NCBI RefSeq assembly: GCF_001956695.1
Contig: NZ_CP019070.1
Span: 1,984,001-2,048,000 of the forward strand
DNA length: 64,000 nt
From: Poseidonibacter parvus
GTDB taxonomy: Bacteria; Campylobacterota; Campylobacteria; Campylobacterales; Arcobacteraceae
Direction: 5' to 3'
Shown: piece by piece, positions 44,603-63,500 of the stretch
How positions within the stretch are numbered: the first letter of the stretch is position 1
How the letters are laid out: every line of letters begins with the position of its first letter
Position numbers and translations under genes: made by a program
Notes under the pieces: generated by a model
The model's database searches: none
Told to the model about the DNA's origin: nothing
What the model saw: only the letters and a program-made list of their open reading frames with translations

Positions 44603-45535
44603 CTATTTAATATTGTTTATCTTGAAAAAACTTTCTGCTCTTTTATAGCCTTTATCTTTGGCTTCTCTAATTAAATCTATACCTTTATCAACATTTCTAG
44701 GTACCCCATAACCATGATAATAATATAAACCTACATGAAATAGCGCAGTTAAACTATTTCTTTGTTTTGCTTTACTATACCAGTAGAAAGCTTTTTTATA
44801 ATCTTGTGATACAACTTTACCTGAACCATAAATATTAGCTAGTTTTATCATAGCTGGCAAATTATTTTGCTTTGAAGATTTAGTTAATAAATCAACTGCT
44901 TTATCAATATCTTCAGGGATCCCATCAGCTGTTAAATACATCATAGCAAGGTTTGCTTGTGCTATTGCATTTGAAGCATCTGAAGCTTCTTTAAACCAAT
45001 AAAAAGCCTTCTTTTTATCTGTTTTAACACCTCTACCTGTATAATACATTTTTCCAAGATTATTTTGTGCAATAATAACACCTTGTTTAGCTGCTTTTTC
45101 ATACCATTCAAAAGCTTGATTAACTTTATCTTCATTTGTACTAAGATCAAATAACATTGCAAGATTTAATTGTGCTAAACCGTAACCTGCAAGTGCAGCT
45201 TTTTCATACCATTTTTGAGCTTCTTTTAAATCTTTTTTAACAACATCACCTAAATAATACATATGAGCTAAATTATTTTGTGCGACTAAGTTACCATTTA
45301 AAGCAGCTTTTTCGTACCAGAAGAATGCTAATTCTTTATTACTATTAACTCCAATACCTTTATAATTCATAAGTGCTACATTATATTGGGCATTAGCATC
45401 ATCATTTAGAGCAAGTTCACTAAATTGCTCATATGCAATTATATATTTTTTATCTTTGAAATTTTGAGTTGCTTCATCAAATGTGAGTGCAAATGAGTTT
45501 ATAAAAAAGATAGATATAAATATAAAAAACTTCAT
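44603..45535 (-). CDS. Exported Sel1-repeat protein
   Basis: 310 aa. Signal peptide (FFIFISIFFINSFA) and about seven Sel1-like helical repeats of ~36 residues (for example AQNNLAHMYYLGD, AFEWYEKAAKQG, AQNNLGKMYYTGRGV). Such proteins act as periplasmic scaffolds or adaptors; here it lies directly downstream of the exporter and LapD-like genes. AAGGA precedes the ATG. Partner unknown. Confidence 0.9.
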   Translation of the reverse strand: MKFFIFISIFFINSFALTFDEATQNFKDKKYIIAYEQFSELALNDDANAQYNVALMNYKGIGVNSNKELAFFWYEKAALNGNLVAQNNLAHMYYLGDVVKKDLKEAQKWYEKAALAGYGLAQLNLAMLFDLSTNEDKVNQAFEWYEKAAKQGVIIAQNNLGKMYYTGRGVKTDKKKAFYWFKEASDASNAIAQANLAMMYLTADGIPEDIDKAVDLLTKSSKQNNLPAMIKLANIYGSGKVVSQDYKKAFYWYSKAKQRNSLTALFHVGLYYYHGYGVPRNVDKGIDLIREAKDKGYKRAESFFKINNIK

Positions 45536-45557: not shown

Positions 45558-46475
45558 TTAATTAGTTTCCAAAGAGAATTCACTATTCTCTTTTAAATTA
45601 TTACTTTCAGTGATAATTTTATCTATTTCTTTATCATTTAAAGAACTTTTCATATTTACAATATCTTTCATATTATCTTTAAATTCATCAATTGATTCAT
45701 CACTATTTTGAATTTCTTCTTTTACATTACTGTTTTCAACAGTTTCTTTTTCTTCTTTCTTTTTAACAATTTTTATTGCTTTAGTTTCTAAAATAGTATT
45801 TTCCATAATTGGATTTAAAATATTACTATTTAAAATATCTTCATTAACATCAAGAATATTATTGCTTTTATTTATTTTTAGATCTGTATCAAGAAATATA
45901 TCTGCTTTTATATTATCAATAGTATTAGCATTATTTCTTTTTTCTGAAATTAAAATATTTTTTATAATTTTATTATCATCTGGTTTATTAGTTAATAAAT
46001 AATTATAACAATTTAAACTATTAAAATCAGAAGAAAAATAGCTAGAACAAGATTCCCATGTAGTATTTATTCCTAATAAGTAATCTAACCTATCCCAAAA
46101 TAACTTATAAACATTATTATTGATTTCTTTTTTATCATCAAAGTCAACTGCATCAGTTCTTTTAATACTTAAAATAGCTCTTGATTCATTTTCAAATTCA
46201 TGTACTTCTAAAATCCAAGTATCTAACATTAAATCTACTCTTATAATACTATTTTGAAAAACAACTTTTTCAACTATTATATTGTCTCTATAAGAATTTA
46301 TAATAAAATCATTATTTTTATTTTCTTTATTTGAAAGAGAAAAAAGTATTTTACTAGCATGAAAAATTGCATCTTTTGAAATATTAGGATATGTCTTTTT
46401 TGTAATAACAGAACCTTTTGCAAAGGCAGTACCTGTTGAAATTAGCAAGACTATTAATAATATATATTTATTCAT
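45558..46475 (-). CDS. Unknown exported protein in the adhesin-export operon
   Basis: 305 aa. A signal peptide (cleavage near AFAKG) precedes a ~140-residue globular domain (YPNISKDAIFHASKILFSL, WILEVHEFENESRAILSIKR, YKLFWDRLDYLLG) with a Cys pair at WESCSS and SLNCYN, then ~150 residues of low-complexity, Asn/Glu/Lys-rich sequence likely unfolded or coiled. I do not recognise it. It occupies the slot next to the LapD-like gene where LapG often lies, but no Cys-His-Asp protease pattern is visible, so it is not LapG. Confidence 0.72.
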   Translation of the reverse strand: MNKYILLIVLLISTGTAFAKGSVITKKTYPNISKDAIFHASKILFSLSNKENKNNDFIINSYRDNIIVEKVVFQNSIIRVDLMLDTWILEVHEFENESRAILSIKRTDAVDFDDKKEINNNVYKLFWDRLDYLLGINTTWESCSSYFSSDFNSLNCYNYLLTNKPDDNKIIKNILISEKRNNANTIDNIKADIFLDTDLKINKSNNILDVNEDILNSNILNPIMENTILETKAIKIVKKKEEKETVENSNVKEEIQNSDESIDEFKDNMKDIVNMKSSLNDKEIDKIITESNNLKENSEFSLETN

Positions 46476-46486
46476 TTAATACAACC

Positions 46487-48664
46487 TTATCTATTTATTG
46501 CGTATATATCTAATTTACTTAAATATCTATAATCATTATCTGATTCTACGTTTTCTGCTAAAATTTTAACATCATTTAATTCACCAAAAATAACTATATT
46601 TTTTACTCTATGTTTCTTAATTAAATCATTGTGAACATTTTGAGTAAGGTCTCTATCCATTTTTATATAATCAATCTTAATTGATGCCAATTCTTCTAAT
46701 GGGAACTCTTTTGTTTTGAACCTTTTGATTAAAATCTGGATATTTAAATCATTCATTAGTTTAACAAATTCACTAAATTCTACTTTATATGCAGAAGCAG
46801 AGTATGATGTAATACTAAATAAAATATGTGATAAAGTATCAGCTTTTTGTTTTGATAAAGTAGTAATAAACTCTATAAAACTAATACTAGAAATAGTTTT
46901 AATTGATAAATTAATAGCTAATTTATAATCAATTTTATTTGCTTCAATAAAATTAATTGTTTTTAATATAACTTCTTTATCAAAATCTTCATTTAATCTG
47001 AGTTTCTCACTTATAGCAATAAAAGAACCTATTGGAAGTACTTTTCCTTCATTATCTTTAAGAATTGGTTTTAATTCTTTCATAAGTAATTTATTTTCTA
47101 ATGAATATGTATCAAAAATAAAATCAATTGTAAAATTACTATTAGAAATAATTGATTTAACTTTATCTTCTAAAGCTAAAACATTTTTTTGAATTTGAGA
47201 TTCTTTTATGATTACACTACAATTAATATTATTTAACATAGCACTATTATAAGCTTCTTCAACAGATTTCATAATAGAGTTTGTTGTACCATAAGCATCA
47301 AAAGGTGTTCCACCTATATGGAAAATATTTTCAGGTAGTTTATAACTTTTTGTAATTTGAACTAATAGACTATCTATAATTTTATTTGAAAATGCTAATG
47401 CTTGTTCATAATTAATTTCTCTTGCAATTATAATAAACTCAGACCCATAGAACCTATAAAAATTTATGTTTTTTTCTTTATAATCAGAAATAATATTATT
47501 TATGATATTTGTAAAAGATAAAATAAAGTTATCAGTATTTAAAGACCCATTTAATTTAACTATCTCATCTAATTTAGCAATCTTTAATGAAAATAAATAT
47601 CCTTCACCTGAGTAAACAAACATACTCTTCATATCAATATCAAACATTTTTTTGTCAGGTAAGCCTGTTAAGTTATCAGTTAATAGGTTTCTTTCTAAAG
47701 TCTCTTTATTAATATTTAATTCATTTTTTAAAGAAGCAATATTACTAGATAGTTTAGAAAGATTAGTAAGTACTTTATTGTAATCTTTAATTTTAGAGAA
47801 TTTATTAGTATTTATATTTGTAAATTTTGAGTTTAGCATATTAAGTACTACTGCATCTAAATATCTAAGAGGTTTTAATAAATATTTTCTTTTTAAATAT
47901 TTTTGATACAACCACACTAATAAAAACATCAATATACAAATAACTGTAGAATATATAAGTAGTTTTTTTAGAAAAGAGACTATGTCTTGTTCAATAAAAG
48001 TATTGTTTTTCTTATATTCAATATTTGCGAAAACAATATTTTTAATAATTAAATCTTTTTTAATCGCATCTTGAGGATCAATTTTTGCAAACGAATCAAT
48101 AAAACTTTCTTTTTTCTGTTTTTCAGTACTATCTTTGTAAATATCAAAAAGATTGATATCTACAAAAATTAAAAAATTTTTAATCTCTTCATTTTTGAAT
48201 AATTGATATCGTATTACAACTTTTTCATTTTTATCAAAAGTTGCTGAGGGGATAAACTCATAAAAAGAGTTACCTGCTAATTTCTGAATTTCTCCATATT
48301 TATAATCTACTGTTACATTTGTAAGATTCCATGAACTATCATTAAAACTTTTTGTTTGGAATAGTAAGGTATCTTTATTAAAAAGATATCTATTTTGTGT
48401 AATCTTTATTTCTTTTATATACTTATCTTTTTTAATATTTTGATTAATAAATTGAATTGAATTTTTATCAAATAAAAGTACTTTCTCTTTAATTTGATTA
48501 TTGAACTTCTCAATACTTAATTCATAATTTACATTTGAATATTCAATACTTTTATTTTTATAATCAATAAAAAAAGACCAGATTGTAAAAAACAGTATTA
48601 AAGAAAAGATGAATGTTAAAAGTAATACATTTTTAATTATGTCTTTTTTATTTTTTTTTAACAT
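46487..48664 (-). CDS. LapD-like degenerate GGDEF-EAL membrane protein
   Basis: 725 aa. TM1 ~11-33, periplasmic LapD/MoxY-like N-terminal domain ~35-232, TM2 ~234-254, HAMP-like linker, degenerate GGDEF domain ~325-480 and degenerate EAL domain ~495-725. The GGDEF signature reads YGSEF (406-410). In the EAL domain the EAL tripeptide is not found (MKELKP region) and the DDFGxG loop is IKRFKTKEF, although KIDYIKMD is kept. Both activities are therefore probably lost, as in LapD, which binds c-di-GMP and controls retention of large adhesins. Its ATG overlaps the TolC-SPOR stop (TAATG), tying it to the exporter. Confidence 0.88.
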   Translation of the reverse strand: MLKKNKKDIIKNVLLLTFIFSLILFFTIWSFFIDYKNKSIEYSNVNYELSIEKFNNQIKEKVLLFDKNSIQFINQNIKKDKYIKEIKITQNRYLFNKDTLLFQTKSFNDSSWNLTNVTVDYKYGEIQKLAGNSFYEFIPSATFDKNEKVVIRYQLFKNEEIKNFLIFVDINLFDIYKDSTEKQKKESFIDSFAKIDPQDAIKKDLIIKNIVFANIEYKKNNTFIEQDIVSFLKKLLIYSTVICILMFLLVWLYQKYLKRKYLLKPLRYLDAVVLNMLNSKFTNINTNKFSKIKDYNKVLTNLSKLSSNIASLKNELNINKETLERNLLTDNLTGLPDKKMFDIDMKSMFVYSGEGYLFSLKIAKLDEIVKLNGSLNTDNFILSFTNIINNIISDYKEKNINFYRFYGSEFIIIAREINYEQALAFSNKIIDSLLVQITKSYKLPENIFHIGGTPFDAYGTTNSIMKSVEEAYNSAMLNNINCSVIIKESQIQKNVLALEDKVKSIISNSNFTIDFIFDTYSLENKLLMKELKPILKDNEGKVLPIGSFIAISEKLRLNEDFDKEVILKTINFIEANKIDYKLAINLSIKTISSISFIEFITTLSKQKADTLSHILFSITSYSASAYKVEFSEFVKLMNDLNIQILIKRFKTKEFPLEELASIKIDYIKMDRDLTQNVHNDLIKKHRVKNIVIFGELNDVKILAENVESDNDYRYLSKLDIYAINR

Positions 48665-51600
48665 TATTTAATCTCATTACTTTGTGCTAGATCAAAATAT
48701 GTATAGTTTTCTTTGTATGCATCTTGTTTTCTATATATTTTTTCAGTTCTAGCTAGATTTATTTTTAATATATCTTCAGGTAATTCAAGAAGTATATTAT
48801 TAGCTTCTGCTTCATTTTCAAAGATTTTATACATTATTTTTATTTTATTTTTATTGTTTAAAAGTCTTACAACAAATATATCTTCTTTTAAGTCATAAAT
48901 ATTAAGAAAATATTTTAATTCAGTTTCATTATTTACACTTGCTAATAGTATTGAATAATATTCTTTTGGAGAATTTAAAAATTCAAATTTGAAATCTTGA
49001 TCATTATACTTATCAATAGCAATAAATTCTAAATATTCTTTAGATTGATTTATTTTTTTTAACTCATCTTTATTTTTAGAATCTTCTATATTTTCCTCTA
49101 TTTTATTCTCTATAATTTTGTCATCAATTACTTGTAAAGATTTAATACCGATTTTTTCAACTGAGCAATTAAAATCTTTTAATAGTAAAGGATTGATTTT
49201 TTTTAGATTTTTTTCTGCTTCTTCTTTTGTTTCATATAAACCATAAACAATATTTTTGTTTTTTGTTTTAGTTAATTGAGAATTGAAAGTAAAAACTTTG
49301 ATATTATATTTTAAATCATATTGATTTAAAAAACTATTTATAACATCATCTTTTGTGTCTGAAAAAGTAATTATATTAATTGTATATAAGTCTTTATTTT
49401 CTGATATAAATGCTTTAGTCTTTTTAGTATTAAGAATTTCGTTATCTATATTATTTTGAGCTTCTTGTAATGGAACATGTTCAACTTTTGGCACTTGTAT
49501 TAAAGTTGGAATTTCTATAACTTCATCATTTTCTGTATTTTCTTCACTTAGAGTAGTTTCTTCAATTTTAGTATTACTATTAGCAAAGAAATTACTTACT
49601 GTTGTAAATAGGTTTGCTTCTTCTTTTATTTCTTCGATTTCTGTTAATGTTTCAATAGAAGAAAGGTTTTTAGTTTCTATTTCTACTTCTGGTACTATTT
49701 CAATTTCAGGCTGTTTTGCCAATTGAGGAATTAAATTTTTAGTTTCTTCTTCTAATGTTAATTTTTCAATCTCTTTTTCTGTATTTTTTTCTTCTTTTTC
49801 TTTACTAGTAAATAAATTACTTACTTTTGAAAATAAGCTATCTACTAAGCCTTTTAAGTTTTTATCATTTGAAATATCTACATTCTTTAATGAAACTGGA
49901 TCTTTATACACCGTATTTGAAGAAACTTTTATATATTCATATTCAGGTTCTTTTTCTTTAACTTCAGTATTTAAATCAATATTTGCATTATATAAAGCTT
50001 GTTCTTTAGAGATTTTTTGAATTACTGGATAGAAATTATTTTTAATATCACCTAAATCATTAATCGCTAATTGAGCTTCATCATAATTTTCATAAATACC
50101 ATATACCCATCTAAATAGTTTTTTAGAATCAACATAAGTATAAGCAAATGAATTATCATATAAATTTATTTTTTCAATCAAAATATCTTCTAATTCTTTC
50201 ATTTCATTGAATGAAGTTATATTAATTGTATAGAATTCAGGATTAGCATTTAAAAACTTAGTTTCAAACTCTTTATTTAAAACAAGTTTATCTTCTTTTT
50301 TAATTTGTTTGATTTTCTCAATAGTATTTGTTTTTTCTACTATTTTAATCTCAGGAGGTACAGGTTTAATCTTAACTTCTAAACCTTTTAAATAATCATT
50401 GTAAAGTTTTTTTACATCTCCTATTTTTTTAAGACTTAATTCTTTTCCAAGATCTTTATTTTTCATTTTTTCTAATTGTTTTAAAGCTTCTTCTTCATTT
50501 TTATAAATACCAAAAGTTACTTTTGTATTTATATTTAAATCATCTACTACATCATAAGAGAAGGCTTCTTTATCAAAGTCATTTATTTTAATAAAATTAT
50601 TTGCTTTTAGTATATTATCAAATAAACCAATATCTATTGTATAGTATTCATTATTAGCAGATAAAAACTTACTCATAAATCTTATTATATTTTCATCTTT
50701 TAAAGCTTTAGAGATTAGTGTTTCTTTAATTTTTTCTTGTTCTTCTAATTCTTCTTGTCTTTCAATTCTTTCTTTTTCATCTAAAAACTTATCATCAATA
50801 TAAACATCTTGTGTATATCCGCTTTTTGAGAAATCAATAAATCTTGGATGTTCAGGATCAATGTCAAAGAATGCTAAAATATCTCCTGTGTATTTTAATA
50901 AAGTAAAGAAATCTGTAATATTGTTTTTTTCATAAGAAATCAATTCTACTTCTGCTGAATTTAATGACTTTTGTCCTTGAAGTAAAACTTGTAAGTCTTG
51001 GTCACCTAATTTGAACTCTTCCCAATAAGCTTCAACCATTTTTCTTAAAGCTATAACTTCTGATATATTACTTTTTAATGATTCATTAGTAGAATTTATT
51101 GCAGTAAATAACTTAGATACATTCCATTTTAATTTTCTTTTTTCTTCATCTAATTTAAAATTTAATTCTCTAATTGAACTATAAGAGTTTAAAACTTTAT
51201 TTTTATCTCTTCCACCGTTATATAAATTATATGAAAGCTTAACTAAACCATTGACAGCCTCTTCTCTTGTTTCTGAACCATCTTGATCCATAACATTATC
51301 AACTGAAAACTCTAAATCAACTTTTGGTAAAAAATTTGATTCTTTTGATTTTAAATTGAACTTTTCTGCTTCAATTGAGTTATAGTAGTTTCTTAATTCT
51401 TTATTTCTTTTTAATGCTCTTTCATATAATAAGTCAAAAGTAGTAACATTAATATTAAAGTTTTTTTCATAAGGTAAAGTTTCTAAATAAACTTCACCAA
51501 CGATGTATTCATAATATCGTAAGGATTCAATAAACTTAGATTTAACTTTAATTTGTTGTGTTTTAGCATTAGAAACATTTGCTTTAATTGCTGTTAAATC

Positions 51601-52308
51601 ACCAATAGAAGCTGCTCCATTTTCGTATTTTATACTAACAATATCTAATATTTTATTTAATTTCTTCATATTAGAATCACTAGTTAAAACAGTTTTATAT
51701 GAGAAAACAACATCAAAATATGCTTTGATAGCTTTAGTTACTTCTTCTGATAAAACTAAGTAATATTGATTTTTAGCTAAATCTAATTTTTTCTTTAGGT
51801 TTTCAACATCATTAGTTGTTGCTCCACCTGCATATAAGTTTTGATTTAAAACAAATTTATAATTTCTATCATCATAATATCTAAATGCATTTGTTCTATC
51901 ATCAGCAGTATTAGTAGCTCTTGTTTTTCCTATTTCATATTCGAAATTTAAAGTAGGATAGTAACCTGCAATTGCATCTTTTAATTTAATTTCATTTTGA
52001 ATAACTTTTTCTCTAGAAGCTTTCAATAAATCACTAGTAGATACTGTTTCTAAAACAACATCCATAAGAGAAACTCTTTTATAATTATCAACATCAATAT
52101 CAGATATTCTTGAATAAGAGTTTAATGAAGGATATGAAGGGTTCATCTTTTTTTGAATTTCTTTTTCACCTAAAAAAAGAGACAATTCATTTAATTTATC
52201 TTCTTTCTCTTCAATAATAAAATTTTTATCATCTTTATTAATTAATTTATCATTATCCGCATTTGCACATAATGATAAGATTATTAAAGATAGCAATTGT
52301 TTCTTCAT
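48664..52308 (-). CDS. TolC-family outer membrane channel with four C-terminal SPOR-like modules
   Basis: 1214 aa, more than twice the usual TolC length. Signal peptide 1-17; TolC/OEP channel ~75-480 (two repeats, YAGGATTNDVENLKKKL and YNGGRDKNKVLNSY turns). The C-terminal ~700 residues hold four SPOR-like modules at about 553-632, 690-765, 972-1055 and 1115-1190. Each begins with Y-Y/T-S/T-I and contains a GIY/GLY/IF turn followed by an EA-rich helix (GIYKNEEEALKQL, GIYENYDEAQLAI, GLYETKEEAEKNL, IFENEAEANNI). Acidic linkers separate them. SPOR domains bind denuded peptidoglycan; a TolC carrying them would be anchored to the wall. Probable LapE-type channel of the type I exporter in this operon. 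Confidence 0.88.
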   Translation of the reverse strand: MKKQLLSLIILSLCANADNDKLINKDDKNFIIEEKEDKLNELSLFLGEKEIQKKMNPSYPSLNSYSRISDIDVDNYKRVSLMDVVLETVSTSDLLKASREKVIQNEIKLKDAIAGYYPTLNFEYEIGKTRATNTADDRTNAFRYYDDRNYKFVLNQNLYAGGATTNDVENLKKKLDLAKNQYYLVLSEEVTKAIKAYFDVVFSYKTVLTSDSNMKKLNKILDIVSIKYENGAASIGDLTAIKANVSNAKTQQIKVKSKFIESLRYYEYIVGEVYLETLPYEKNFNINVTTFDLLYERALKRNKELRNYYNSIEAEKFNLKSKESNFLPKVDLEFSVDNVMDQDGSETREEAVNGLVKLSYNLYNGGRDKNKVLNSYSSIRELNFKLDEEKRKLKWNVSKLFTAINSTNESLKSNISEVIALRKMVEAYWEEFKLGDQDLQVLLQGQKSLNSAEVELISYEKNNITDFFTLLKYTGDILAFFDIDPEHPRFIDFSKSGYTQDVYIDDKFLDEKERIERQEELEEQEKIKETLISKALKDENIIRFMSKFLSANNEYYTIDIGLFDNILKANNFIKINDFDKEAFSYDVVDDLNINTKVTFGIYKNEEEALKQLEKMKNKDLGKELSLKKIGDVKKLYNDYLKGLEVKIKPVPPEIKIVEKTNTIEKIKQIKKEDKLVLNKEFETKFLNANPEFYTINITSFNEMKELEDILIEKINLYDNSFAYTYVDSKKLFRWVYGIYENYDEAQLAINDLGDIKNNFYPVIQKISKEQALYNANIDLNTEVKEKEPEYEYIKVSSNTVYKDPVSLKNVDISNDKNLKGLVDSLFSKVSNLFTSKEKEEKNTEKEIEKLTLEEETKNLIPQLAKQPEIEIVPEVEIETKNLSSIETLTEIEEIKEEANLFTTVSNFFANSNTKIEETTLSEENTENDEVIEIPTLIQVPKVEHVPLQEAQNNIDNEILNTKKTKAFISENKDLYTINIITFSDTKDDVINSFLNQYDLKYNIKVFTFNSQLTKTKNKNIVYGLYETKEEAEKNLKKINPLLLKDFNCSVEKIGIKSLQVIDDKIIENKIEENIEDSKNKDELKKINQSKEYLEFIAIDKYNDQDFKFEFLNSPKEYYSILLASVNNETELKYFLNIYDLKEDIFVVRLLNNKNKIKIMYKIFENEAEANNILLELPEDILKINLARTEKIYRKQDAYKENYTYFDLAQSNEIK

Positions 52309-52314
52309 TTATCT

Positions 52315-53076
52315 CTACTTTTTAATTGTGATTACTAAATATCCATTAGTATCATCAATTTTTTCTTTTATATTTGGTTCTTTTGTTAAATCAATTTTAA
52401 CGTCTTTCTTTTCATAACCAAACTTTCTTATTAAGTTTCTTGTACTTATAGTTCTTGCAAGTGATATCTGTTTTGAAATAGTTGCACTTAACTGTTTTTT
52501 CATATCTTTTGTATATATATGAATTTCATGTTTTCCACTTCTTTCTTTTGCAGAACTTAAAAACTGTTTTATTTTTCTTGTAATTCCATCATCTACAAAT
52601 ATCTCATTACTTTTATATGTAACGATTAAGTAATCTTTATTTTCAATAATTTTTTGATTTTCATCATTTGTTTCATTTTTATCTGCTATATCAATACCTG
52701 CTGATTCAATTTTATTACTTTTTTCTGCACTATTTTGATTTTCATTTACTTCAATTTGATTTTGTAAAGTTAAAATTCTTTGCTTTTGTTCGTTAATAAT
52801 TTTAATATTAATATCTGAATTTGAATTTGATCCAGCACTAGGGTCTGTAACTTTTTTTGTATTAAGTTCATTTTCCTCACTTGACCTATTATTATTTAAA
52901 ATAATATCATCATTGGAAATTGAGCCTGTATAAGAAACTTTATATTTAAATTGTGCGTAATAACCTAGATTTACTAAAACTACTAATAAGAATAATAGTA
53001 ATACTAAAATTACTGAAGAAAAAATATCAACAAATGATGGCCAAGGGTTGAACTCATCTTCACATCTAGACGCCAT
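52315..53076 (-). CDS. MotB/OmpA-like partner of the MotA-type channel
   Basis: 253 aa. A short cytoplasmic N-terminus, then PSFVDIFSSVILVLLLFLL, in which Asp17 begins the single membrane helix as the proton-carrying Asp does in MotB/ExbD-type proteins. A periplasmic linker of low complexity follows, then a C-terminal OmpA/MotB-like domain (~150-253; ISLARTISTRNLIRKFGY). The peptidoglycan-binding signature is weak. It starts 3 nt after the MotA-like gene stop and precedes the TolC-SPOR gene by 6 nt. Likely an ion-channel stator subunit. Confidence 0.82.
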   Translation of the reverse strand: MASRCEDEFNPWPSFVDIFSSVILVLLLFLLVVLVNLGYYAQFKYKVSYTGSISNDDIILNNNRSSEENELNTKKVTDPSAGSNSNSDINIKIINEQKQRILTLQNQIEVNENQNSAEKSNKIESAGIDIADKNETNDENQKIIENKDYLIVTYKSNEIFVDDGITRKIKQFLSSAKERSGKHEIHIYTKDMKKQLSATISKQISLARTISTRNLIRKFGYEKKDVKIDLTKEPNIKEKIDDTNGYLVITIKK

Positions 53077-53079
53077 ATA

Positions 53080-54228
53080 CTATCTTTTATTCTCTTGATT
53101 GTCTTTATTTTGTAAAGATTCCACTAGCTGCACAAGTAATTTATTATTTTCTTCTTGCAACTGTAAACTTTTTTTGATTGTCTTATGTTCTGATAAAATT
53201 ACACTTGATATCTCTTGTAATGACTCTTCAATAAGTTTTGAATTTGAGTATTGATTTACATTAGATTCTTTCATAATTTCTATCATGTTTTTCAATAATA
53301 TAGATTCATTATCTGTTTTATGGATATTATGATCTAGCTTATCAGCAATTTTCATAAACATCTCTTGAGACACTTGATTTGATCTTTCCATTTTATCTGT
53401 AAAATCTCCCATTGTGTCAACAAAAATATCAATAAATCCAGCACTCATAGGAGATGAATTATCTGAATTAGAAACTAAATTAATATTTCCAATATCATCT
53501 GTGCTAGACAGTGAATCAATACTTGTATTATTTGATTCAACAATTTTACCTTTCATCCAATCTTGTACATCTTCGACAAACGCAGACTGATTTCTAGTTA
53601 AAATATATTGCATTACATTTAGAATAATTGCAGAAGCAACACCGAATAAAGAAGAGGCAAACCCAATAGCCATACCACCAAGAGGTCCAGAGAAACCTGT
53701 CATGATTTCTCCAATATCAATATTATCTCCACCAAAAGATAAAATAATACCTCCCATTTCATCAATGGCTACAAGAAGTCCTGTAAATGTACCAAAAAGT
53801 CCTAGCATTAATGAAGTACCAACGAAGAAAGCTGTATATCCTTTTTGTTGGAAGAATTGTCCTTCTAACCAATCGATAACTTCATGAGCTTCTTGTTGAG
53901 TAAAATATAAAACACCTTTCTTAGCTCTTCTTTGGAACATATGCGCAATAGTTGCAGGCATTAATCCAGTAATACCTTCTAAGTAAAACTCTAAACTTTT
54001 ACCTGTTTTATAAGCTAAGATACCGAAGGTACCAGCAAGCATTGTAAGTCTAATTGCAGATTGATAAACAACTAATAAACCAATTAAGAACATTGTTGTA
54101 ATAGCAACATTAAATGTTAATGTTGACATAAAGAATGTATATACTAAAGAAAAGTTAGCATAAATAGTAAAAACGATAAAAAGCATTACTACAAAAAATA
54201 TTTTTAATATTTTTATACGTCTCATCAT
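53080..54228 (-). CDS. MotA/TolQ/ExbB-family proton channel protein
   Basis: 382 aa. Helices at ~7-30 and ~37-60, then a cytoplasmic region, then two channel helices at ~138-165 and ~180-215 with the family motifs LMLGLFGTFTGLL and GPLGGMAIGFASSLFGVASA. A ~160-residue C-terminal tail is predicted to be helical/coiled. Two ATGs lie in tandem; AGGA is better spaced (6 nt) for the second (54225). Adjacent to the MotB-like gene, so the pair should form a MotA5B2-type complex driven by proton or sodium flow. This is family knowledge, not shown here. Confidence 0.9.
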   Translation of the reverse strand: MMRRIKILKIFFVVMLFIVFTIYANFSLVYTFFMSTLTFNVAITTMFLIGLLVVYQSAIRLTMLAGTFGILAYKTGKSLEFYLEGITGLMPATIAHMFQRRAKKGVLYFTQQEAHEVIDWLEGQFFQQKGYTAFFVGTSLMLGLFGTFTGLLVAIDEMGGIILSFGGDNIDIGEIMTGFSGPLGGMAIGFASSLFGVASAIILNVMQYILTRNQSAFVEDVQDWMKGKIVESNNTSIDSLSSTDDIGNINLVSNSDNSSPMSAGFIDIFVDTMGDFTDKMERSNQVSQEMFMKIADKLDHNIHKTDNESILLKNMIEIMKESNVNQYSNSKLIEESLQEISSVILSEHKTIKKSLQLQEENNKLLVQLVESLQNKDNQENKR

Positions 54229-54234
54229 CTATCC

Positions 54235-55185
54235 TTAAAACATGAATAGTAATATAGATATCACTAAACCAAGAGCTACTGTAGTAACAGTTTTTGTCAT
54301 ATTATCAACAATATTTACAAAAGCTCCACTACCTTCAACTTTTTCACCTAAAATGATATAACCAATGATTACTCCATTAATATCGGCTACTTCTTTATAT
54401 GTTTTAAAATATTCTTCATTTACACTATATCCATCTATTTTAAAATTAGAAAAGGCTTCTTTACCTTCTGTTAATATGTTTGAGAAGAATTGTCCATCAT
54501 AATTTCGTTCTTCAACTTTTAAATCATTAACAATTGTTCTGTAACTTCCATTTTTTGCATCAATACTTACATTTGCAAGCATTCTTTCTTCTAGTAAAAA
54601 TAGAAATATACCTTGTCTGTTTCGTTCTATATCTTTTTTAAGTGTAAGAATACTTTCCTTAACTTCAATAACACCTAAAACGTTTTCACCATCTAAGATA
54701 GGTTCTAAATAGACTATATTTGGTCCAGATGGAAGTACTTCAATACCATATAATGCAGTCTTTCTATTTATTGTTGTATTAATACTATTTCTAAATTGAT
54801 TAGTTTGATTTACAGTAGAATAAAATACTAAAGAAGTAGAGCCAAATCCAGCTTCTACTAAACTATTATTGTAATTTGTAATTATAGGGTCTATTAAAGC
54901 TTTGTTATTTAGGTTATTTTTAAAAGTGTCGTTTATTTTTAGTCCTAAAACTAATTTACTAAAACCTTTTTGTTTATCTTCTAGTTTATGTTCTAAACTT
55001 GATTTGTAAACATTAGACATATTTAAATATACTTCATTCCCTACGCTTTTTGTCATACTTGTAAGGATATACATTGACAAAAAAATACCAGTTATTGCGA
55101 GTAGAGTTAAAAGAGTAAACCAAAGGCCTTTCTTCTTTTTTAATTCACTAAGTAAATTTTGTAACGCTTTAATAAAACTAAACAC
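54235..55185 (-). CDS. Cache-domain membrane protein without output domain
   Basis: About 316 aa. N-terminal helix ~20-42, a periplasmic Cache-like sensor at ~45-285 (SLVFYSTVNQTNQF, GPNIVYLEPILDGENVLGVIEVKES, GVIIGYIILGEKV) and a C-terminal helix ~300-318, ending five residues later. It looks like the sensor part of an MCP or kinase without any signalling module. An ATG at 55191 directly abuts AAGG; the GTG at 55185 has correct spacing, so I chose it. It lies between the HlyD gene and the MotA-like gene and is 6 nt from the latter. Confidence 0.78.
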   Translation of the reverse strand: MFSFIKALQNLLSELKKKKGLWFTLLTLLAITGIFLSMYILTSMTKSVGNEVYLNMSNVYKSSLEHKLEDKQKGFSKLVLGLKINDTFKNNLNNKALIDPIITNYNNSLVEAGFGSTSLVFYSTVNQTNQFRNSINTTINRKTALYGIEVLPSGPNIVYLEPILDGENVLGVIEVKESILTLKKDIERNRQGIFLFLLEERMLANVSIDAKNGSYRTIVNDLKVEERNYDGQFFSNILTEGKEAFSNFKIDGYSVNEEYFKTYKEVADINGVIIGYIILGEKVEGSGAFVNIVDNMTKTVTTVALGLVISILLFMF

Positions 55186-55199
55186 CCACATCCTTTTCG

Positions 55200-55286: not shown

Positions 55287-56564
55287 TTATTGTTCACTTA
55301 ATGCATTTTTTCTAATATTTTTTAGTGGTTTTAAAATATATTCTAGTACTGTTTTTTTACCAGTTAAAATATTTACATTTGCAACCATTCCAGGTAGAAT
55401 TGGAAGATCAGGTGCAAATTGATTTACATCAGCTCTAATTTTTGCAATATAATAAATATTTCCTGTTCTATCCTCAAAACTATCAGAAGATATTAAAATC
55501 AATTTACCATTTAGTAATCCATATTTAGAAAAATCATAAGCTGTTATTTCAACTGATACATCTTGACCTTCCCATATAAAGGCTCTATCTGAACTCTTTA
55601 TTTTTGCTTCAATTGTCAATGTATCTTCAATAGGAGTTATTTCTGCCATCTTATCTCCAGGCTTTACAATACCACCTTCTGTATAGAAATATAGTTTATT
55701 TATTATTCCATTTACAGGTGAAATAACTGATTTTCTAAGTTCTCTATCATCATTTGCTTTGTTCTTTTCAATTAATTTATTAATCTCATTTTTAACTTCA
55801 GAATACTTTCCTAATAGTTTACTTCTAACTTCAGACTTAACACTATTTATTTTTCTATTTGCTTCTTCAATTTCTTGTTGTAAAATTGGAATATTATTTC
55901 TAGTTTCTTCTATTTTTGTAACAATATTTTGTTTTTTTGATAATTCTGAAATATATTCTTTTTTAGATGTAACTTTTTTTCTTAATAATTCATCTAAAAT
56001 TTTCATGTTTTCAATAGCTAAATTTAATTCTATTGTTAGGTTATTATATTTGATTTTTGTTTCTCTTAATTTATACTCTTTTTGTCTTGCTTGATCTCTT
56101 GCAATATCAATTTTTCTTTTGTTATTTTCTAATTCTTCATAAAAAATATTTGTTTCATTTCTTATAATATCAGGAATTTTTGATTTTAGTTCATCTGAAA
56201 ATTTGATTTTTTTCTTATTATCAATTAAAGATTCTAATCTAATTAATACAGCTTGGAATGTTAATAAGTCTAGCTCTTTTGATACAGAATCTGCTTTAAA
56301 AAACTCGTTTGAAAGTGTATAAATAATATCACCTTTTTTTACACTATCACCCTCTTTTAATAAAATACTTGAAACTATTCCGCCTTCAAGGTTTTGTAAA
56401 ATTTTAGTTTGACCTGAAGGTACTACTTTTCCAGAACCTCTTACAACTTCGTCAACTTGACTAAAATATGCCCATGAAAGGAAACATATAAAAAACAACA
56501 TTATTGGAATTACAGTAGTATAATAATTCCAATCTTTTTCTTCAAATAATCTATTATTTTTCAT
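55287..56564 (-). CDS. HlyD-family periplasmic adaptor (LapC-like)
   Basis: 425 aa. TM ~15-33, N-terminal biotinyl-lipoyl half (VVRGSGKVVPSGQTKILQNLEGGIVSSILLKEGDSVKKGDII), long coiled-coil hairpin ~130-260, second lipoyl half (SPVNGIINKLYFYTEGGIVKPGDKMAEI) and C-terminal beta-barrel. It bridges the ABC exporter and TolC in a type I system. It starts 1 nt after the stop of the ABC gene. Confidence 0.94.
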   Translation of the reverse strand: MKNNRLFEEKDWNYYTTVIPIMLFFICFLSWAYFSQVDEVVRGSGKVVPSGQTKILQNLEGGIVSSILLKEGDSVKKGDIIYTLSNEFFKADSVSKELDLLTFQAVLIRLESLIDNKKKIKFSDELKSKIPDIIRNETNIFYEELENNKRKIDIARDQARQKEYKLRETKIKYNNLTIELNLAIENMKILDELLRKKVTSKKEYISELSKKQNIVTKIEETRNNIPILQQEIEEANRKINSVKSEVRSKLLGKYSEVKNEINKLIEKNKANDDRELRKSVISPVNGIINKLYFYTEGGIVKPGDKMAEITPIEDTLTIEAKIKSSDRAFIWEGQDVSVEITAYDFSKYGLLNGKLILISSDSFEDRTGNIYYIAKIRADVNQFAPDLPILPGMVANVNILTGKKTVLEYILKPLKNIRKNALSEQ

Positions 56565-56565
56565 C

Positions 56566-58680
56566 TTACTTCTTTTCTTGTAAAGCTTTTAATACAGTAT
56601 CTCTTGGTCCATCTGCTACTACTTTTCCTTGATTTAACACAATAACTCTATCAACTAGTTCTAGTGCTGCAAATCTATGAGTAATTACAATCAATGTTTT
56701 TTTCTGTAATATTTGTTTCATATGAGAGATTAATGATTTCTCTAACCCCACATCTAAACCTGTTGTTGGCTCATCTAAAAGTAAAATCGAAGGGTCTTTT
56801 AATAAAGCCCTTGCAAGTGCAACTAAATGTCTTTGACCAACAGATAAATTACAACCTCTCTCCCCTACTTGTAATCCATCACCTTGACCTGATTTTTTAA
56901 CTAAATCTTCTAATCCTGTTATTTTAATTAATTGCATTAATCTTTCTTTACTAACAGGAGTTGAAAGTTCAATATTTTCTTTTAAAGTTCCAGAAAATAA
57001 AAATGGTTCTTGAGGCATAACACCAATATTTTGACGTATTTCGATAGGATGAACTGTTGATATTTCATGCCCATCAATATAAACAGAACCTTTTGTAGGG
57101 CTATCTAAACCTGTTAAAATACGCAAGAATGTACTTTTTCCAGCTCCTGTTTGTCCTATAATACCTACTTTTTCACCCTCTTGAATTTTAATATTACAGT
57201 TTTCTAAAGAAGGATATTTACTATTTTTATAATAAAAATCTACATTTGAAAATTCAATATTTCCTTTTATTTTACCCAATCCTATTTCTATATTTTTATC
57301 ATTTTCTAAAGGTAGGTGCCAAAAATCATTGATATTATTTAAAGATTCTTTTATTTCTTTAAATTTTATTGCCATCATTGAAGTTTGAATTATTGGTATC
57401 ATTGCTCTACTTGAAAGAATAGTAACAGCAATTAATCCCCCAACTGTAAGGTTTTTATTTGCTATTTCAAATACTCCTACAACTATAACTAACATTGTTA
57501 CAAACTGAATTACAGTTTGTGATAGGTTTAATGAAAAAACATTTAAAGATTGAATTTTTAATGCTATTGAATCTGTAACTGCAATAATATTTCTCCAATT
57601 AAAAAGTTTAGTTGAACGTGCATTTGAAAGTTTAATAATTTCACTTCCTTGAATAGTTTCAACTAAGTATGCATGTTTTGCTTGTACATTTTCAATATTC
57701 TTTTTACTTAAATTAGAAATTGGTATTTGCATAAATATATTAAATAATAGAATTAATATTGCAGTTATAAAAGGAACTAAAGCAACCATTGGAGAAATGA
57801 TAAAAATTACAGTAATTGCTAAAAAGAAGAAAGGTAAATCAATTACTTGGACAACTGATTTTGTTGCAAAGAAGTCTTTTATTTGGGCTAATTCTCTAAA
57901 TAAATTTGCTTTTGTACCTACTAGCATATTATCGTATTGAGCTTGTAAACTTAATACTCTTTTTAATAATTCTTCTTCTAAATAAACACCTAATTCTTTT
58001 CCAACTTTTTCAATAATATGATTTCTAACACTTTTAAAATATACATCAAAAAGTAAAATAATAACTACACCAATAGCTAAAACAAATAGTGTTTCAGTTG
58101 CATTATTAGGTACTACTCTATCATAAACACTCATGGTAAATAATGGTACAGCTAGTGCAAAAATATTTATAAAAAATGTTAGAAAACCTATTTCTATATA
58201 TGAACGCCAGAATTTCTTAACAGGATTCCAGAACCATTCTTTTCCCTTTACTTCATCAAGAACTTTTTCTTTTTGAGGATCTCTAAATACTAATATTGCT
58301 TTTTTAAATTTTTTTAAATAACTTAGGTCTTTTTTTATTTCTTCTTTACTTACAGGATCAAAAAGAAAGCACTCTTTTCCTTTCTTTTGTAAAATAAAAG
58401 GTTTGTTTTTACTATCAAAAATAATACAAGGTAAAAAATGATTTGGAATATCAATAGCTTTCATATTTCTAGAAACAGCCGTTAAGCCAACTTCTTTTGC
58501 TACATCAATTGCTAATTCTTCTGTAAAACCTTTATCAGACTTTGCACTAAAATTAACAATTGTTTCAATAGAAATATCTCCAAAATAAAAGTCTAATAAA
58601 TATTTTAAAGAGAAGAGTAAAGGAAACTCTTCTCTACTTAGACCACTATTTTCGATTTCTACATTTTCTTGATTTTCCAA
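56566..58680 (-). CDS. Type I secretion ABC exporter with degenerate C39 domain (LapB-like)
   Basis: 704 aa. N-terminal C39-peptidase-like domain ~15-135 in which the expected catalytic Cys position holds Ser/Leu (LLFSLKYLLDFYF), so it should bind rather than cleave its substrate; membrane domain ~155-430 (six helices); ATPase with Walker A GQTGAGKST (509-517), signature LSVGQ (612-616), Walker B ILLLDEP (632-638) and H-loop THR. This architecture is that of LapB-type exporters of giant adhesins. The start is TTG with AAAGG 7 nt upstream. 9 nt after the TPR-glycosyltransferase gene. Confidence 0.95.
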   Translation of the reverse strand: MENQENVEIENSGLSREEFPLLFSLKYLLDFYFGDISIETIVNFSAKSDKGFTEELAIDVAKEVGLTAVSRNMKAIDIPNHFLPCIIFDSKNKPFILQKKGKECFLFDPVSKEEIKKDLSYLKKFKKAILVFRDPQKEKVLDEVKGKEWFWNPVKKFWRSYIEIGFLTFFINIFALAVPLFTMSVYDRVVPNNATETLFVLAIGVVIILLFDVYFKSVRNHIIEKVGKELGVYLEEELLKRVLSLQAQYDNMLVGTKANLFRELAQIKDFFATKSVVQVIDLPFFFLAITVIFIISPMVALVPFITAILILLFNIFMQIPISNLSKKNIENVQAKHAYLVETIQGSEIIKLSNARSTKLFNWRNIIAVTDSIALKIQSLNVFSLNLSQTVIQFVTMLVIVVGVFEIANKNLTVGGLIAVTILSSRAMIPIIQTSMMAIKFKEIKESLNNINDFWHLPLENDKNIEIGLGKIKGNIEFSNVDFYYKNSKYPSLENCNIKIQEGEKVGIIGQTGAGKSTFLRILTGLDSPTKGSVYIDGHEISTVHPIEIRQNIGVMPQEPFLFSGTLKENIELSTPVSKERLMQLIKITGLEDLVKKSGQGDGLQVGERGCNLSVGQRHLVALARALLKDPSILLLDEPTTGLDVGLEKSLISHMKQILQKKTLIVITHRFAALELVDRVIVLNQGKVVADGPRDTVLKALQEKK

Positions 58681-58689
58681 AAAATACCT

Positions 58690-60477
58690 TTAGCTTATTT
58701 TGATTTTATATTGTTTTGAGATTTTTGCAATTAGTGATTGAAAAACACTGTCCCAAGATCTATTTGTTTTCTGTCTAATTAGTTTTGCACTTGGATACCA
58801 CTTTGTTGTTTCACCTTTGTTTGTCCATCTCCAATCAGGTATTTTTTGTAATGGAATAAATACTTGTTTATTTATAGCTCCCGCTAAATGTGCAACTGAA
58901 GTATCAGAAGAAATAACAAAATCTAATTTATTAATTAATGAAGCTGTTTTATCAAAATTAACTAATTTGTCTGTTAAATCAATAATATTTTTTTCATATC
59001 CATATTTTTTAATATCTTCACTTCCATCACCTACTTGTAATGAATAAACATTTATTTTTGGATTTTTAATTAATGGTTCTAAATATTTTAAATCAAATAC
59101 TTTTCCATCATAACTTTCACCAGTTAAGGATGCACTCCAGCAAATACCAATATTAATTTTACCTTTTGTTTTTTTAATATCAAAAGAATCATCATCTTTT
59201 ACTATTAAGTATGGGTTCTTAATTGGTAAGTCACTAATGTTTTTCATTTCTAAAATATATGGCATACTCATTATTGAAAGTTGATAGTCAAAATTTGGTG
59301 TTTTTTCACTTCTATCAACAATAGTATCTATTTCTTCAATTCTAGAGAATAATTCTTTTAATCCTTCTCTACATTTAACAGCAATTTTACATCCATACTT
59401 TTCTTTTAATTGTGGCAAGAACCTAATAAATTGAATACTATCTCCATATCCTTGTTCTGAATGAAGAAGTAAAGTTTTACCTTTAATATCTTCTTTCCCT
59501 GTGAATAATGGTTTTGAAAAAACATCTTTATTTTTTATAATATGAGGAATCATTTCCTCTTTTCTAAATCTCCACTCATATTCTTTCCAACCATTTTTAA
59601 AATCTTGATTAGCAAGATACATTGTTGATAAATCAAAATGTGCATTTACAAACTTTGGATTCAATTCAATTGCTTTTTTATAAGCTTCAATTGATTTTTT
59701 AGAAAAACCTAAATATTTATATGAAGTCCCAACATTACTATATGCATTTTCACCCTTAGGGTCTAGTTCAATTGATTTTTCATGTAACTTTGAAGCTTTC
59801 TTATAATCAAATATTTTATTGTAAACATTTCCAAGATTTGTATAAGCACCACTATGATTTGGCATTTTTTCAATAGCTTTTTCTAAAGACTCAATTGCTT
59901 TATCATAATCTTTAGCTTTATTATAAGCAGCACCTTTATTACTATAAACCTCATTATAATTTGGATCAGTTTTAAGTGCAATTTCAAAAATTTCTGCTGC
60001 TTTTTTATATTCTTTTTGTTTATATAAAACAACACCTATATTATTTACAGATTTTGCATGTTTTGGATTAATTTTAACTGCTTCTTTATAAGCTGCAATT
60101 GCTTTATTATTATCTCCAATTGTTTCATAAATAATTCCAAGATTATTAAAAGCATTAAAATCATTTGGATTTAATTTTATAGAATCACTGTAAGCACGTA
60201 TAGCCATTTTATAATTTTTAATTTCTTTAAAGGCATTTCCAATATTATTGTAAACAGATTTATTTTTTGGATTTAATTTTATAGCCTGAAGATAACACTT
60301 AATAGCAGTATTCACGTCACCTTTTGATTTATATATCACACCAAGGTTTCCATAGGCTTCTGAATTCTTTGGGTTTATTTTTATAATCTCTTCATATTTT
60401 AATTGAGCATTTGTAAGATCTTTTTTCTTATAAAACTCTATAGCTTCACCAAAAAGTAATTTTTGTTTTTCTATCAT
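58690..60477 (-). CDS. TPR protein with C-terminal glycosyltransferase-like domain
   Basis: 595 aa. About nine tetratricopeptide repeats of 34 residues span ~1-310 (unit pattern AYNNLGN-x-y-K-A-I-x-x-Y-x-x-A-I-x-L-N-P). The C-terminal ~270 residues resemble the GT-B fold of heptosyltransferase/GT9-type enzymes (LLLHSEQGYGDSIQFIRFLP, INIGICWSAS, VISSDTSVAHLAGA). Proteins with this fusion are often next to secreted, Thr/Ser-rich adhesins. Here it lies between the adhesin and its exporter, so O-glycosylation of the adhesin before export is an attractive inference. Activity not shown. Confidence 0.88.
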   Translation of the reverse strand: MIEKQKLLFGEAIEFYKKKDLTNAQLKYEEIIKINPKNSEAYGNLGVIYKSKGDVNTAIKCYLQAIKLNPKNKSVYNNIGNAFKEIKNYKMAIRAYSDSIKLNPNDFNAFNNLGIIYETIGDNNKAIAAYKEAVKINPKHAKSVNNIGVVLYKQKEYKKAAEIFEIALKTDPNYNEVYSNKGAAYNKAKDYDKAIESLEKAIEKMPNHSGAYTNLGNVYNKIFDYKKASKLHEKSIELDPKGENAYSNVGTSYKYLGFSKKSIEAYKKAIELNPKFVNAHFDLSTMYLANQDFKNGWKEYEWRFRKEEMIPHIIKNKDVFSKPLFTGKEDIKGKTLLLHSEQGYGDSIQFIRFLPQLKEKYGCKIAVKCREGLKELFSRIEEIDTIVDRSEKTPNFDYQLSIMSMPYILEMKNISDLPIKNPYLIVKDDDSFDIKKTKGKINIGICWSASLTGESYDGKVFDLKYLEPLIKNPKINVYSLQVGDGSEDIKKYGYEKNIIDLTDKLVNFDKTASLINKLDFVISSDTSVAHLAGAINKQVFIPLQKIPDWRWTNKGETTKWYPSAKLIRQKTNRSWDSVFQSLIAKISKQYKIKIS

Positions 60478-60596: not shown

Positions 60597-63500
60597 TTAC
60601 ACATCAGTTAAATCAATCGTAAGTGTTGTATTTCCTAAATTATAAGTTGTATTATCACTTATATCACTATTCGTATTTCCAGAATTATAACTATTTCTTT
60701 CTGTTGAACTTGAAGTATCAGTAAATTTAATTAAATCTGCTTGTGTTGATGTTAAAGATAAAGTTAAATTACCAGTTGAACTTCCTGTCCATGATTGAAT
60801 TAATGCATCAGTGAATTCAAATTCTGTACCTGTATCTGCAGTATCCAAGTTTAAAGTTCTTATATCTAGTTTTTCTATATTTGTAAAAGATGATGCATGT
60901 CCAAATTCAGTATCACTACTTATTGAATTAGAATTACCTGTTAACTCAACATTATCTGTATTCGATCCACCATCAATATTAAAGTTATCAATATTACTAA
61001 AGTTTAAAGCAAAAGTATCATCGCCTGCTTCACCATTTACATTAGTAGGTTCATCTCCACTTAACGTGATATTATCATTTCCACTTGAAAGATTTAAATT
61101 TTCAAGATTTGAAATGTTGCTAAAATCTAAATCTCCAGAAACAGCTGTATCAAATGCTAAAGTGTCATCACCATTACCAAAATCTAAGATATCACTACTA
61201 TCTAGTTCATCAAAATTAATATTTAGAGTATCATCGCTTATTCCAAATGTTGCATCTATAACTCCACTTGTATCTGCAAAAATAGACTCTACATCATTTG
61301 TTGCAGCTGTTCCTGTAATTGTTGCATTATAATCAGCATCCATAGTAATACCTGCATCCTGAAGTGCTTCAATTTCAGTACTTGTTCCTGTAACACCTGT
61401 AATACCTGATGCATCTACTGTACCTGTTCCATTTGTAGTATTAAGTGTAGTAATTGCATTTGCTGTTTCAGTTCCAGCACTTAATGTTGAATCAAAATTT
61501 GCTGGATTCGTATCAAGATCACTTAACGCTGCATTAATTTCTGACACACTTCCATTAATTGCAGTTAAGTTTGAGCCATCAATTGTACCGTTTCCATTAG
61601 CCGTATTTAATGTTGTTATATCTGTAGCATCAACAGAAGCTGCGCTAAGTGTAATATTTGTATCTTCACTTGTATAACCAGCTATTGTAGTAGCTTCAGA
61701 AATACTTACAGTATCATCTATTGTAATATTCTCATTTCCAAGACCATTATATTCACTAACATTTGTATCATAAATATTAGTTAATTCTGCTGCTGTACCG
61801 TTAATAGTATGTATAGATGTTAATGCACTTACATCAATTTGTTGGTTTGTTTTACCATTTAGAGCAACCAAATCAGCAGCATCTTGATTACCAGCAGTTA
61901 CGGTTATAGTAATCTCATCAGTTGAAGCTGTAGTCAATCCATTTAAAATTGAAGCATCATTTGATGTCGCAGTTGCTGTTACTACACCTGTTGCAGAGTC
62001 TGCATTTATTGTATTTATATCTGCAACACTTACACTTCCACTTACATCTACTGCTAAACTTCCATCTGTTACTGTTGTGATTGTTGAATCTGTTGCTAGT
62101 ACATCTTTTACATCTGTTGCATTACCAGTTAATTTTGTAATTACTGTTGCATTTATTGCTATTCCTGTTTTTGAATCGATTGTTTTTAAATCTGATGCTG
62201 ATGTATCTGCCGCTGCCATATTTACTGTGATGTCATCATTATCATCTGTTGATAATCCAGTTAATGTTCCAGCAACCCCTGTATTTGCTGTTGCAGTTAC
62301 TACTCCACTTGTTGAAGATATTGTATTTATATCTGTTACTGAAATATCTCCACCTGTTATTGTTACATCTTCATCTCCATCTAACAATACTAAACCTGTT
62401 ACTACATCTGTAATTGTTCCATCATCTTGTGTTACTTCTTCAATTGTTGATACTGTAAAGTTATTAACTTTTGCATTTAAATTAACTAAATCACTCGCAT
62501 TTACACTTGTATCTGTTGTTGTAAATGTTATTACATCATCTACGCCTACATCTACATCTGTAATTGCATCTAATGTTGCTTTTACTGCTCCTGCTGTGAT
62601 TGTTGCTGTTACTACTCCACTTGTATCTCCAGCTATATCATTTATTACTGAAGCTGCTACTGTATCATCTACATTTATTGCTTTTGTTCCAAGTCCTGTT
62701 ATTGTTCCTGCTGTATTTGCAGCTAGTGCTGTCTGTATAGATGTTGCTGTTCCTGTTAATTCAGTAATACTGCCTGCATCTACTGCAACACCTGTTGCAC
62801 CGTTAATTATATTTATATTTGCAGCATCTGTACTTGCTGCTTCTAATTCAACTGTAATCATATCTGTATTACTTGTTGTTAATCCTGCTAACGTTGTTGC
62901 ATTTCCTGTATCTACTGTTCCTACTGTTACTACACCTGTTGCAGAGTCTGCATTTATTGTATTTATATCTGCAACACTTACACTTCCACTTACATCTACT
63001 GCTAAACTTCCATCTGTTACTGTTGTGATTGTTGAATCTGTTGCTAGTACATCTTTTACATCTGTTGCATTACCAGTTAATTTTGTAATTACTGTTGCAT
63101 TTATTGCTATTCCTGTTTTTGAATCGATTGTTTTTAAATCTGATGCTGATGTATCTGCCGCTGCCATATTTACTGTGATGTCATCATTATCATCTGTTGA
63201 TAATCCAGTTAATGTTCCAGCAACCCCTGTATTTGCTGTTGCAGTTACTACTCCACTTGTTGAAGATATTGTATTTATATCTGTTACTGAAATATCTCCA
63301 CCTGTTATTGTTACATCTTCATCTCCATCTAACAATACTAAACCTGTTACTACATCTGTAATTGTTCCATCATCTTGTGTTACTTCTTCAATTGTTGATA
63401 CTGTAAAGTTATTAACTTTTGCATTTAAATTAACTAAATCACTCGCATTTACACTTGTATCTGTTGTTGTAAATGTTATTACATCATCTACGCCTACATC

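Follow-up and report, generated by a model that had tools for sequence, protein, structure and literature searches.

The window analysed here is a stretch of 64,000 nucleotides from Poseidonibacter parvus (NZ_CP019070.1, positions 1,984,001 to 2,048,000), and it holds a type I secretion system (T1SS) locus, in which an ATP-binding cassette (ABC) exporter, an HlyD adaptor, a TolC channel and a repeats-in-toxin (RTX) substrate are encoded together. The channel gene (48664..52308; window coordinates are used throughout, and every window feature given lies on the minus strand) is the subject of this study. Its open reading frame (ORF) has an ATG start and no internal stops, and by its Pfam and family-profile matches it encodes a 1,214-amino-acid outer-membrane channel with four SPOR units in its tail, here called TolC-SPOR. 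A plus-strand reading of the same interval was full of stops and was dismissed; an earlier annotation made from the letters alone, referred to below as the sequence-only reading, had given no strand for this ORF.

Anatomy of the channel and its tail

Compared with Pfam as a whole, TolC-SPOR matched OEP (PF02321; 128 bits in two stretches, cut-off 22) and SPOR (PF05036; 41.4 bits, cut-off 21), so that both of the families proposed in the sequence-only reading were found above their cut-offs. With TIGR01844 the channel scored 172 bits, below the cut-off of 225. The TolC-type channel, placed at residues 1–480 in that reading, is real but occupies residues 78–484 (50857..52077), residues 1–77 (52078..52308) being a signal peptide and a low-confidence stretch (predicted local distance difference test (pLDDT) <50 for residues 1–69). 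In an AlphaFold model of residues 1–788, VIA-align matched residues 78–498 to Escherichia coli TolC (Z 31.6, root-mean-square deviation (rmsd) 2.9, 400 residues), and the TolC barrel and helical tunnel fold are present in this part of the protein.

An AlphaFold2 model of residues 500–1214 contained four domains of β-α-β-β-α-β topology, most blocks having pLDDT values of 77–98, with low-confidence linkers between them. VIA-align placed SPOR structures among its best matches. Unit 1 (residues 554–636; 50401..50649) was matched to the SPOR domains of RlpA (Z 7.5) and CwlC (Z 6.0), unit 2 (residues 691–773; 49990..50238) to that of DamX (Z 8.4, rmsd 2.3, 83 residues), and unit 3 (residues 974–1055; 49144..49389) to that of DedD (Z 5.3). 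These structural matches cover units 1–3; the fold of unit 4 (residues 1116–1198; 48715..48963) rests on the AlphaFold model, where the same topology has high pLDDT. Foldseek with the four-domain model gave no matches at E <0.001, and the second pass with VIA-align was clearer. When unit profiles were compared with the PDB chain of DamX, the outer units (3 onward) matched at E 1e-11, unit 2 at E 5e-6 and unit 1 at E 0.07, and the three unit types were mutually related in profile–profile comparison.

A family hidden Markov model (HMM) built from orthologues recovered four SPOR units in the tail at E-values of 5e-14 (unit 3) to 4e-25, with 3e-18 for unit 4. Because this HMM was seeded with the same four stretches, it is not independent support for four units, and we draw that support from the AlphaFold models, the VIA-align matches and the DamX profile matches. 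A chance SPOR match was ruled out by the whole-protein Pfam score, the structures and the DamX profile matches. All four predicted modules have the ribonucleoprotein (RNP)-like topology of SPOR and none has another fold, which confirms, at the level of structural models, that the tail consists of four SPOR-fold domains, as the sequence-only reading had held. Its description of the linkers as acidic is right overall, chiefly for linker 2 (200 residues, 774–973; 49390..49989; net charge −21, pLDDT mostly <50), but linker 1 carries a slight positive charge (+3).

A putative glycan-binding site

Septal denuded glycan is the target of the DamX, FtsN and RlpA SPOR domains; RlpA contacts it through Gln270, Arg302, Arg309, Arg311 and Phe274, and the FtsN equivalents of these residues include Gln251, Trp283 and Arg285 (PMC6895207). 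We read the corresponding positions of unit 2 from an alignment of 34 orthologues to DamX. The Gln270 position holds Asn in 32 of the 34, and the others hold Ser/Thr (34/34), Phe (30/34) and Leu/Trp (34/34), with Lys/Arg at the Arg309 position in all 34. In unit 1 the ligand positions are not conserved: Glu stands at the Gln position in 16 of the 34 orthologues and mixed residues in the rest, and polar residues occupy the Trp position. The outer units likewise have mixed residues at the ligand positions, and a canonical SPOR protein from the same genome keeps the usual Gln. The proposal that the SPOR modules bind denuded glycan is thus upheld in part: unit 2, which keeps the site in conservative form, is, on residue conservation, a likely glycan binder, but the Glu or variable residue of unit 1 and the variation of the outer units do not follow it. 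Since only unit 2 keeps the conserved site, the whole array is not to be assumed to bind alike.

Wall-binding domains on other Campylobacterota channels

Three further T1SS channels with SPOR are encoded in the window’s own genome, one with the domain at the N-terminus and two at the C-terminus. The N-terminal domain scores over the Pfam cut-off (25.4 bits), and its locus also has genes for a protease of the LapG family and a LapD-type GGDEF/EAL protein; the C-terminal paralogues score under it (13.7 and 16.5 bits), the first of them also matching the family HMM at 52 bits. In another genome (G147), the TolC orthologue beside the MotAB-like pair has an N-terminal SPOR domain over the cut-off (26.0 bits), and two other channels (L219 and L222) carry a C-terminal SPOR just under it (19.1 and 19.9 bits). 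The operon lipoprotein of one genus (g8) also ends in a SPOR-like domain, under the Pfam cut-off at 13.5–16.7 bits (L081:14964-16379, L084:3671-5098 and L086:14197-15786). The N-termini of the genus g22 (family f3) channels resemble SPOR on visual inspection and can be aligned to the N-terminal SPOR domain of the window’s genome; Pfam is blind to them and hhalign was weak (36%), and they were not counted.

On eight sampled T1SS channels the C-terminal domain is of the OmpA type (32–110 bits, cut-off 27.2). The ligand of OmpA domains is ordinary stem peptides, which lie all around the cell. The eight are L213, L214, L215, L216, L217, L223, L224 and L225, and in several of them thrombospondin type 3 repeats precede OmpA. 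One further TolC channel (L218:1269-3431) has a C-terminal Sel1 repeat (44 bits); the gene block of the window also ends with a Sel1-like protein.

The recurrence of two unrelated wall-binding folds on related channels suggests, as far as domain content can tell, a tethering of these pores to the wall. That such folds sit at either channel end and on a neighbouring lipoprotein is our chief reason for proposing that wall tethering itself was selected for. A SPOR array might instead serve as a localisation tag that puts the channel at sites of denuded glycan (septum, new pole) and so shows the adhesin at the pole, load bearing being beside the point. Such a tag would suit the conservative version of the glycan site in unit 2, the increase in avidity expected of an array and the recruitment of DamX, FtsN and RlpA SPOR domains to septal denuded glycan (PMC6895207). 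We nevertheless think it unlikely. The replacement of SPOR by OmpA domains on related channels leaves a septum-specific role unneeded, and glycan specificity may be reduced by the Gln-to-Asn change and by the absence of the site from units 1, 3 and 4. With SPOR found at either end and alternating with an OmpA-type domain, general wall tethering is favoured over a function confined to division sites.

A conserved gene block with a MotAB-like pair

TolC-SPOR orthologues occur in 38 of the 104 genomes of its family, in 13 of 20 genera, and named orthologue records come from Arcobacteraceae (Aliarcobacter, Arcobacter caeni, Halarcobacter and Malaciobacter halophilus), Sulfurimonas and Sulfurospirillum. 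One locus with an Arcobacteraceae-type block (L131) belongs to a record titled as a Helicobacter pylori PMSS1 metagenome-assembled genome, a title that is probably a wrong taxon label. Complete orthologues are 743 to about 1,400 amino acids long and have 2–5 SPOR units; the first two are constant, and the later ones differ in number and spacing. Such variation could mean that the C-terminal SPOR copies are passengers of a decayed, neutral repeat expansion, with a selected function in unit 2 alone, and the divergence of the outer units, which have no invariant columns, would fit this as well. We regard it as very improbable: despite long divergence the outer units still have open frames and confidently predicted folds, and SPOR-like domains recur on separate proteins.

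Where the contig was long enough to judge, nearly all loci fetched have one gene order: Cache protein, MotA-like, MotB-like, TolC-SPOR, LapD-like, lipoprotein-like, Sel1-like. The HlyD and ABC genes mostly lie upstream of this block, in some cases on the opposite strand. In the window, the block begins with a membrane protein that has a Cache-like sensor domain (54235..55191; weak Pfam dCache_3 match and synteny). A MotA/ExbB/ZorA-like protein of 382 amino acids follows (53080..54228), assigned by synteny and by weak matches to Pfam MotA_ExbB (16.1 bits, cut-off 22.9) and NCBIfam ZorA (18.7 bits, cut-off 100). The MotB-like protein of 253 amino acids (52315..53076) comes next. Its family has an invariant Asp17 in a transmembrane helix across 30 sequences and a C-terminal domain that is weakly OmpA-like (weak Pfam match in 9 of the 30 members; hhalign probability 62%); a PDB profile search with the family returned nothing useful.

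On the other side of the channel gene, and overlapping it by base 48664, lies the gene for a LapD-like GGDEF-EAL receptor (46487..48664), assigned by synteny and an EAL match of 90 bits; its NCBIfam LapD score is far under the equivalog cut-off (125 versus 1020 bits). Next comes a secreted or lipoprotein-like protein (45558..46475), some orthologues of which have a C-terminal SPOR-like domain. The lipobox Cys of its orthologues is absent from the window’s copy (STGTA versus FTGCS). A Sel1-repeat-like protein, placed by synteny and with its repeat character read from the sequence, ends the block (44603..45535). Upstream lie the HlyD-type T1SS adaptor (55287..56564; TIGR01843, 343 bits) and the T1SS ABC transporter of the LssB subfamily (56566..58680; TIGR03375, 735 bits), both over their cut-offs, then a tetratricopeptide repeat (TPR) protein between the adhesin and ABC genes (58690..60477; Pfam TPR), and the C-terminal part of a giant RTX adhesin (60597..64000).

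The TolC and MotB-like profiles each match 16 of 298 sampled Campylobacterota genomes, and the 16 are identical; with the two genes adjoining, this bears out the link to the MotB-like subunit raised in the sequence-only reading. Strict co-occurrence would also be expected if the SPOR-fold units mainly docked onto proteins (the MotB-like subunit, the LapD periplasmic domain and the lipoprotein), coupling the state of the motor or of cyclic di-GMP (c-di-GMP) to the channel, and bound the wall only a little. In loci with intact ends, C-terminal SPOR units accompany the LapD–lipoprotein–Sel1 genes, and among the loci fetched no LapD-like gene lies near SPOR-less or N-terminal-SPOR MotAB-type channels; unit 1, moreover, shows its own pattern of conservation, and Glu occupies its ligand position. 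We still consider docking a quite improbable main role, as the exchange for OmpA on related channels suggests that the wall is the common target, and unit 2 has kept the glycan site.

One complete genome is an exception to the block (G001; locus L057, G001:C1:330000-349000). The locus no longer has MotAB, HlyD, ABC or adhesin genes, its TolC ORF begins downstream of the signal-peptide region, the Sel1 gene is split and transposase-like ORFs lie nearby. Because the T1SS, motor and adhesin genes were lost and the TolC ORF lost its signal-peptide region, this degraded locus suggests that the channel is dedicated to this system.

The adhesin ORF extends past the window to genome position 2078256 (G000:C1:2044597-2078256, minus strand); it encodes about 11,219 amino acids from the first start codon, with no stop, and contains 117 GGxGxD motifs. 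Syntenic adhesins in 14 other genomes have 7,900–15,200 amino acids, the orthologue of G092 (L193/L172/L161) about 15,170, and nearly all share a common N-terminal segment.

Discussion

The best reading of this gene and domain content is a SiiAB/Lap-like T1SS whose outer-membrane pore would be tethered to peptidoglycan so that an adhesin is held or positioned. We hypothesize that TolC-SPOR is a wall-tethered exit channel that holds the giant adhesin, and give this a probability of about 0.62. It would be the dedicated outer-membrane exit of the T1SS for the giant RTX adhesin, with a periplasmic wall tether built in. The HlyD and ABC parts would hand the unfolded adhesin to the TolC body, and the flexible tail would emerge from the channel close to its periplasmic equator, so that the SPOR domains could grip peptidoglycan glycan strands; unit 2 is the likeliest binder, and the rest would give added reach or avidity, or have different partners. 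If the adhesin N-terminus stays plugged in the channel, the tether would fix channel and adhesin to the wall, and pulling force on the adhesin would pass to the sacculus. The tether may also keep the channel beside the MotAB-like (SiiAB-like) motor, where the MotB-like subunit probably binds the wall as well, and the LapD-like c-di-GMP receptor and the lipoprotein probably govern retention.

Several results weigh against this model. Taken singly against Pfam SPOR, units 1, 2 and 3 scored 18.2, 18.1 and 14.8 bits, all just below the cut-off of 21, and unit 4 alone had no match. At the ligand position unit 2 has Asn instead of Gln, and units 1, 3 and 4 have not conserved the glycan site. Five genomes from one genus of another family combine MotA-like and MotB-like proteins with a TolC of 458–464 amino acids that lacks SPOR, so not every system of this kind requires a tether. 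(The MotA-like proteins of these systems, L112–L116, are 700–790 amino acids long, with a long helical-looking C-terminal extension.) The number of SPOR units correlated with adhesin length in raw data from 15 genomes (Spearman 0.71, p 0.003) but not significantly in contrasts on a conserved-protein tree (r 0.28, p 0.31), and the correlation is therefore not used as support. Near its N-terminus the adhesin has no LapG-type [TPA]AA[GT] site, the sole motifs being at residues 6138 and 10983, which makes the Lap part of the model weak; all three genes of the BTLCP (LapG) family in the genome lie outside the TolC-SPOR locus.

The T1SS of Salmonella pathogenicity island 4 (SPI-4; SiiABCDEF) resembles this system in that a MotAB-like pair accompanies the export of a giant adhesin. 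Its MotB-like SiiA binds peptidoglycan, and its adhesin is retained without a known protease; SiiAB controls that retention, and proton flow affects it (PMC12607715, PMC6272769). The MotB-like family described here, with its invariant transmembrane Asp and weakly OmpA-like C-terminus, would match SiiAB. Unlike TolC-SPOR, SiiC is not described in these papers with a SPOR tail (PMC12607715, PMC6272769), and the SPI-4 system has no LapD-like gene and a substrate, SiiE, of BIg domains rather than RTX. Pseudomonas Lap (LapA/E/B/C/D/G) and Desulfovibrio Dvh share the LapD-like GGDEF-EAL receptor and a TolC-like channel that retains a giant adhesin (PMC13090378), whereas the block in the window has a MotAB-like pair, no LapG, an adhesin without the N-terminal LapG-type site and SPOR on the channel. 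DamX, FtsN, DedD and RlpA share the SPOR fold, and among solved structures DamX is nearest in sequence to units 2 and 3 onward; those proteins are division proteins or a wall enzyme, whereas the TolC-SPOR modules stand on an export channel, in an array, and with Asn replacing the conserved Gln. E. coli TolC has the same channel fold, and its equatorial domain is proposed to touch the wall, but no domain of it is devoted to wall binding, and YbjP, the lipoprotein that partners it, does not seem to be an avid peptidoglycan binder (PMC13082787).

SPOR domains, TolC channels and MotAB-linked T1SSs are already known. In the open-licence papers searched we found no description of TolC-SPOR, Campylobacter T1SS-SPOR or TolC-OmpA fusions, in keeping with the sequence-only reading, which knew of no such T1SS component; nor did we find the arrays or their recurrence described. 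More broadly, and tentatively, Campylobacterota T1SS exit channels may form a wall-anchored class that acquired interchangeable wall-binding modules, either OmpA or a SPOR at one or the other end, on several occasions. The SPOR array of the MotAB branch might then bear tension as a tether matched to adhesin size, holding or reeling adhesins of about 1 MDa and more together with a wall-bound motor. The system bears on how giant adhesins held by TolC resist being pulled and on the part that SiiAB-type motors play in type I secretion. A channel that carries its own wall-binding array beside a strictly co-occurring motor gene, with relatives that lack the array or use another fold, makes both directly testable.

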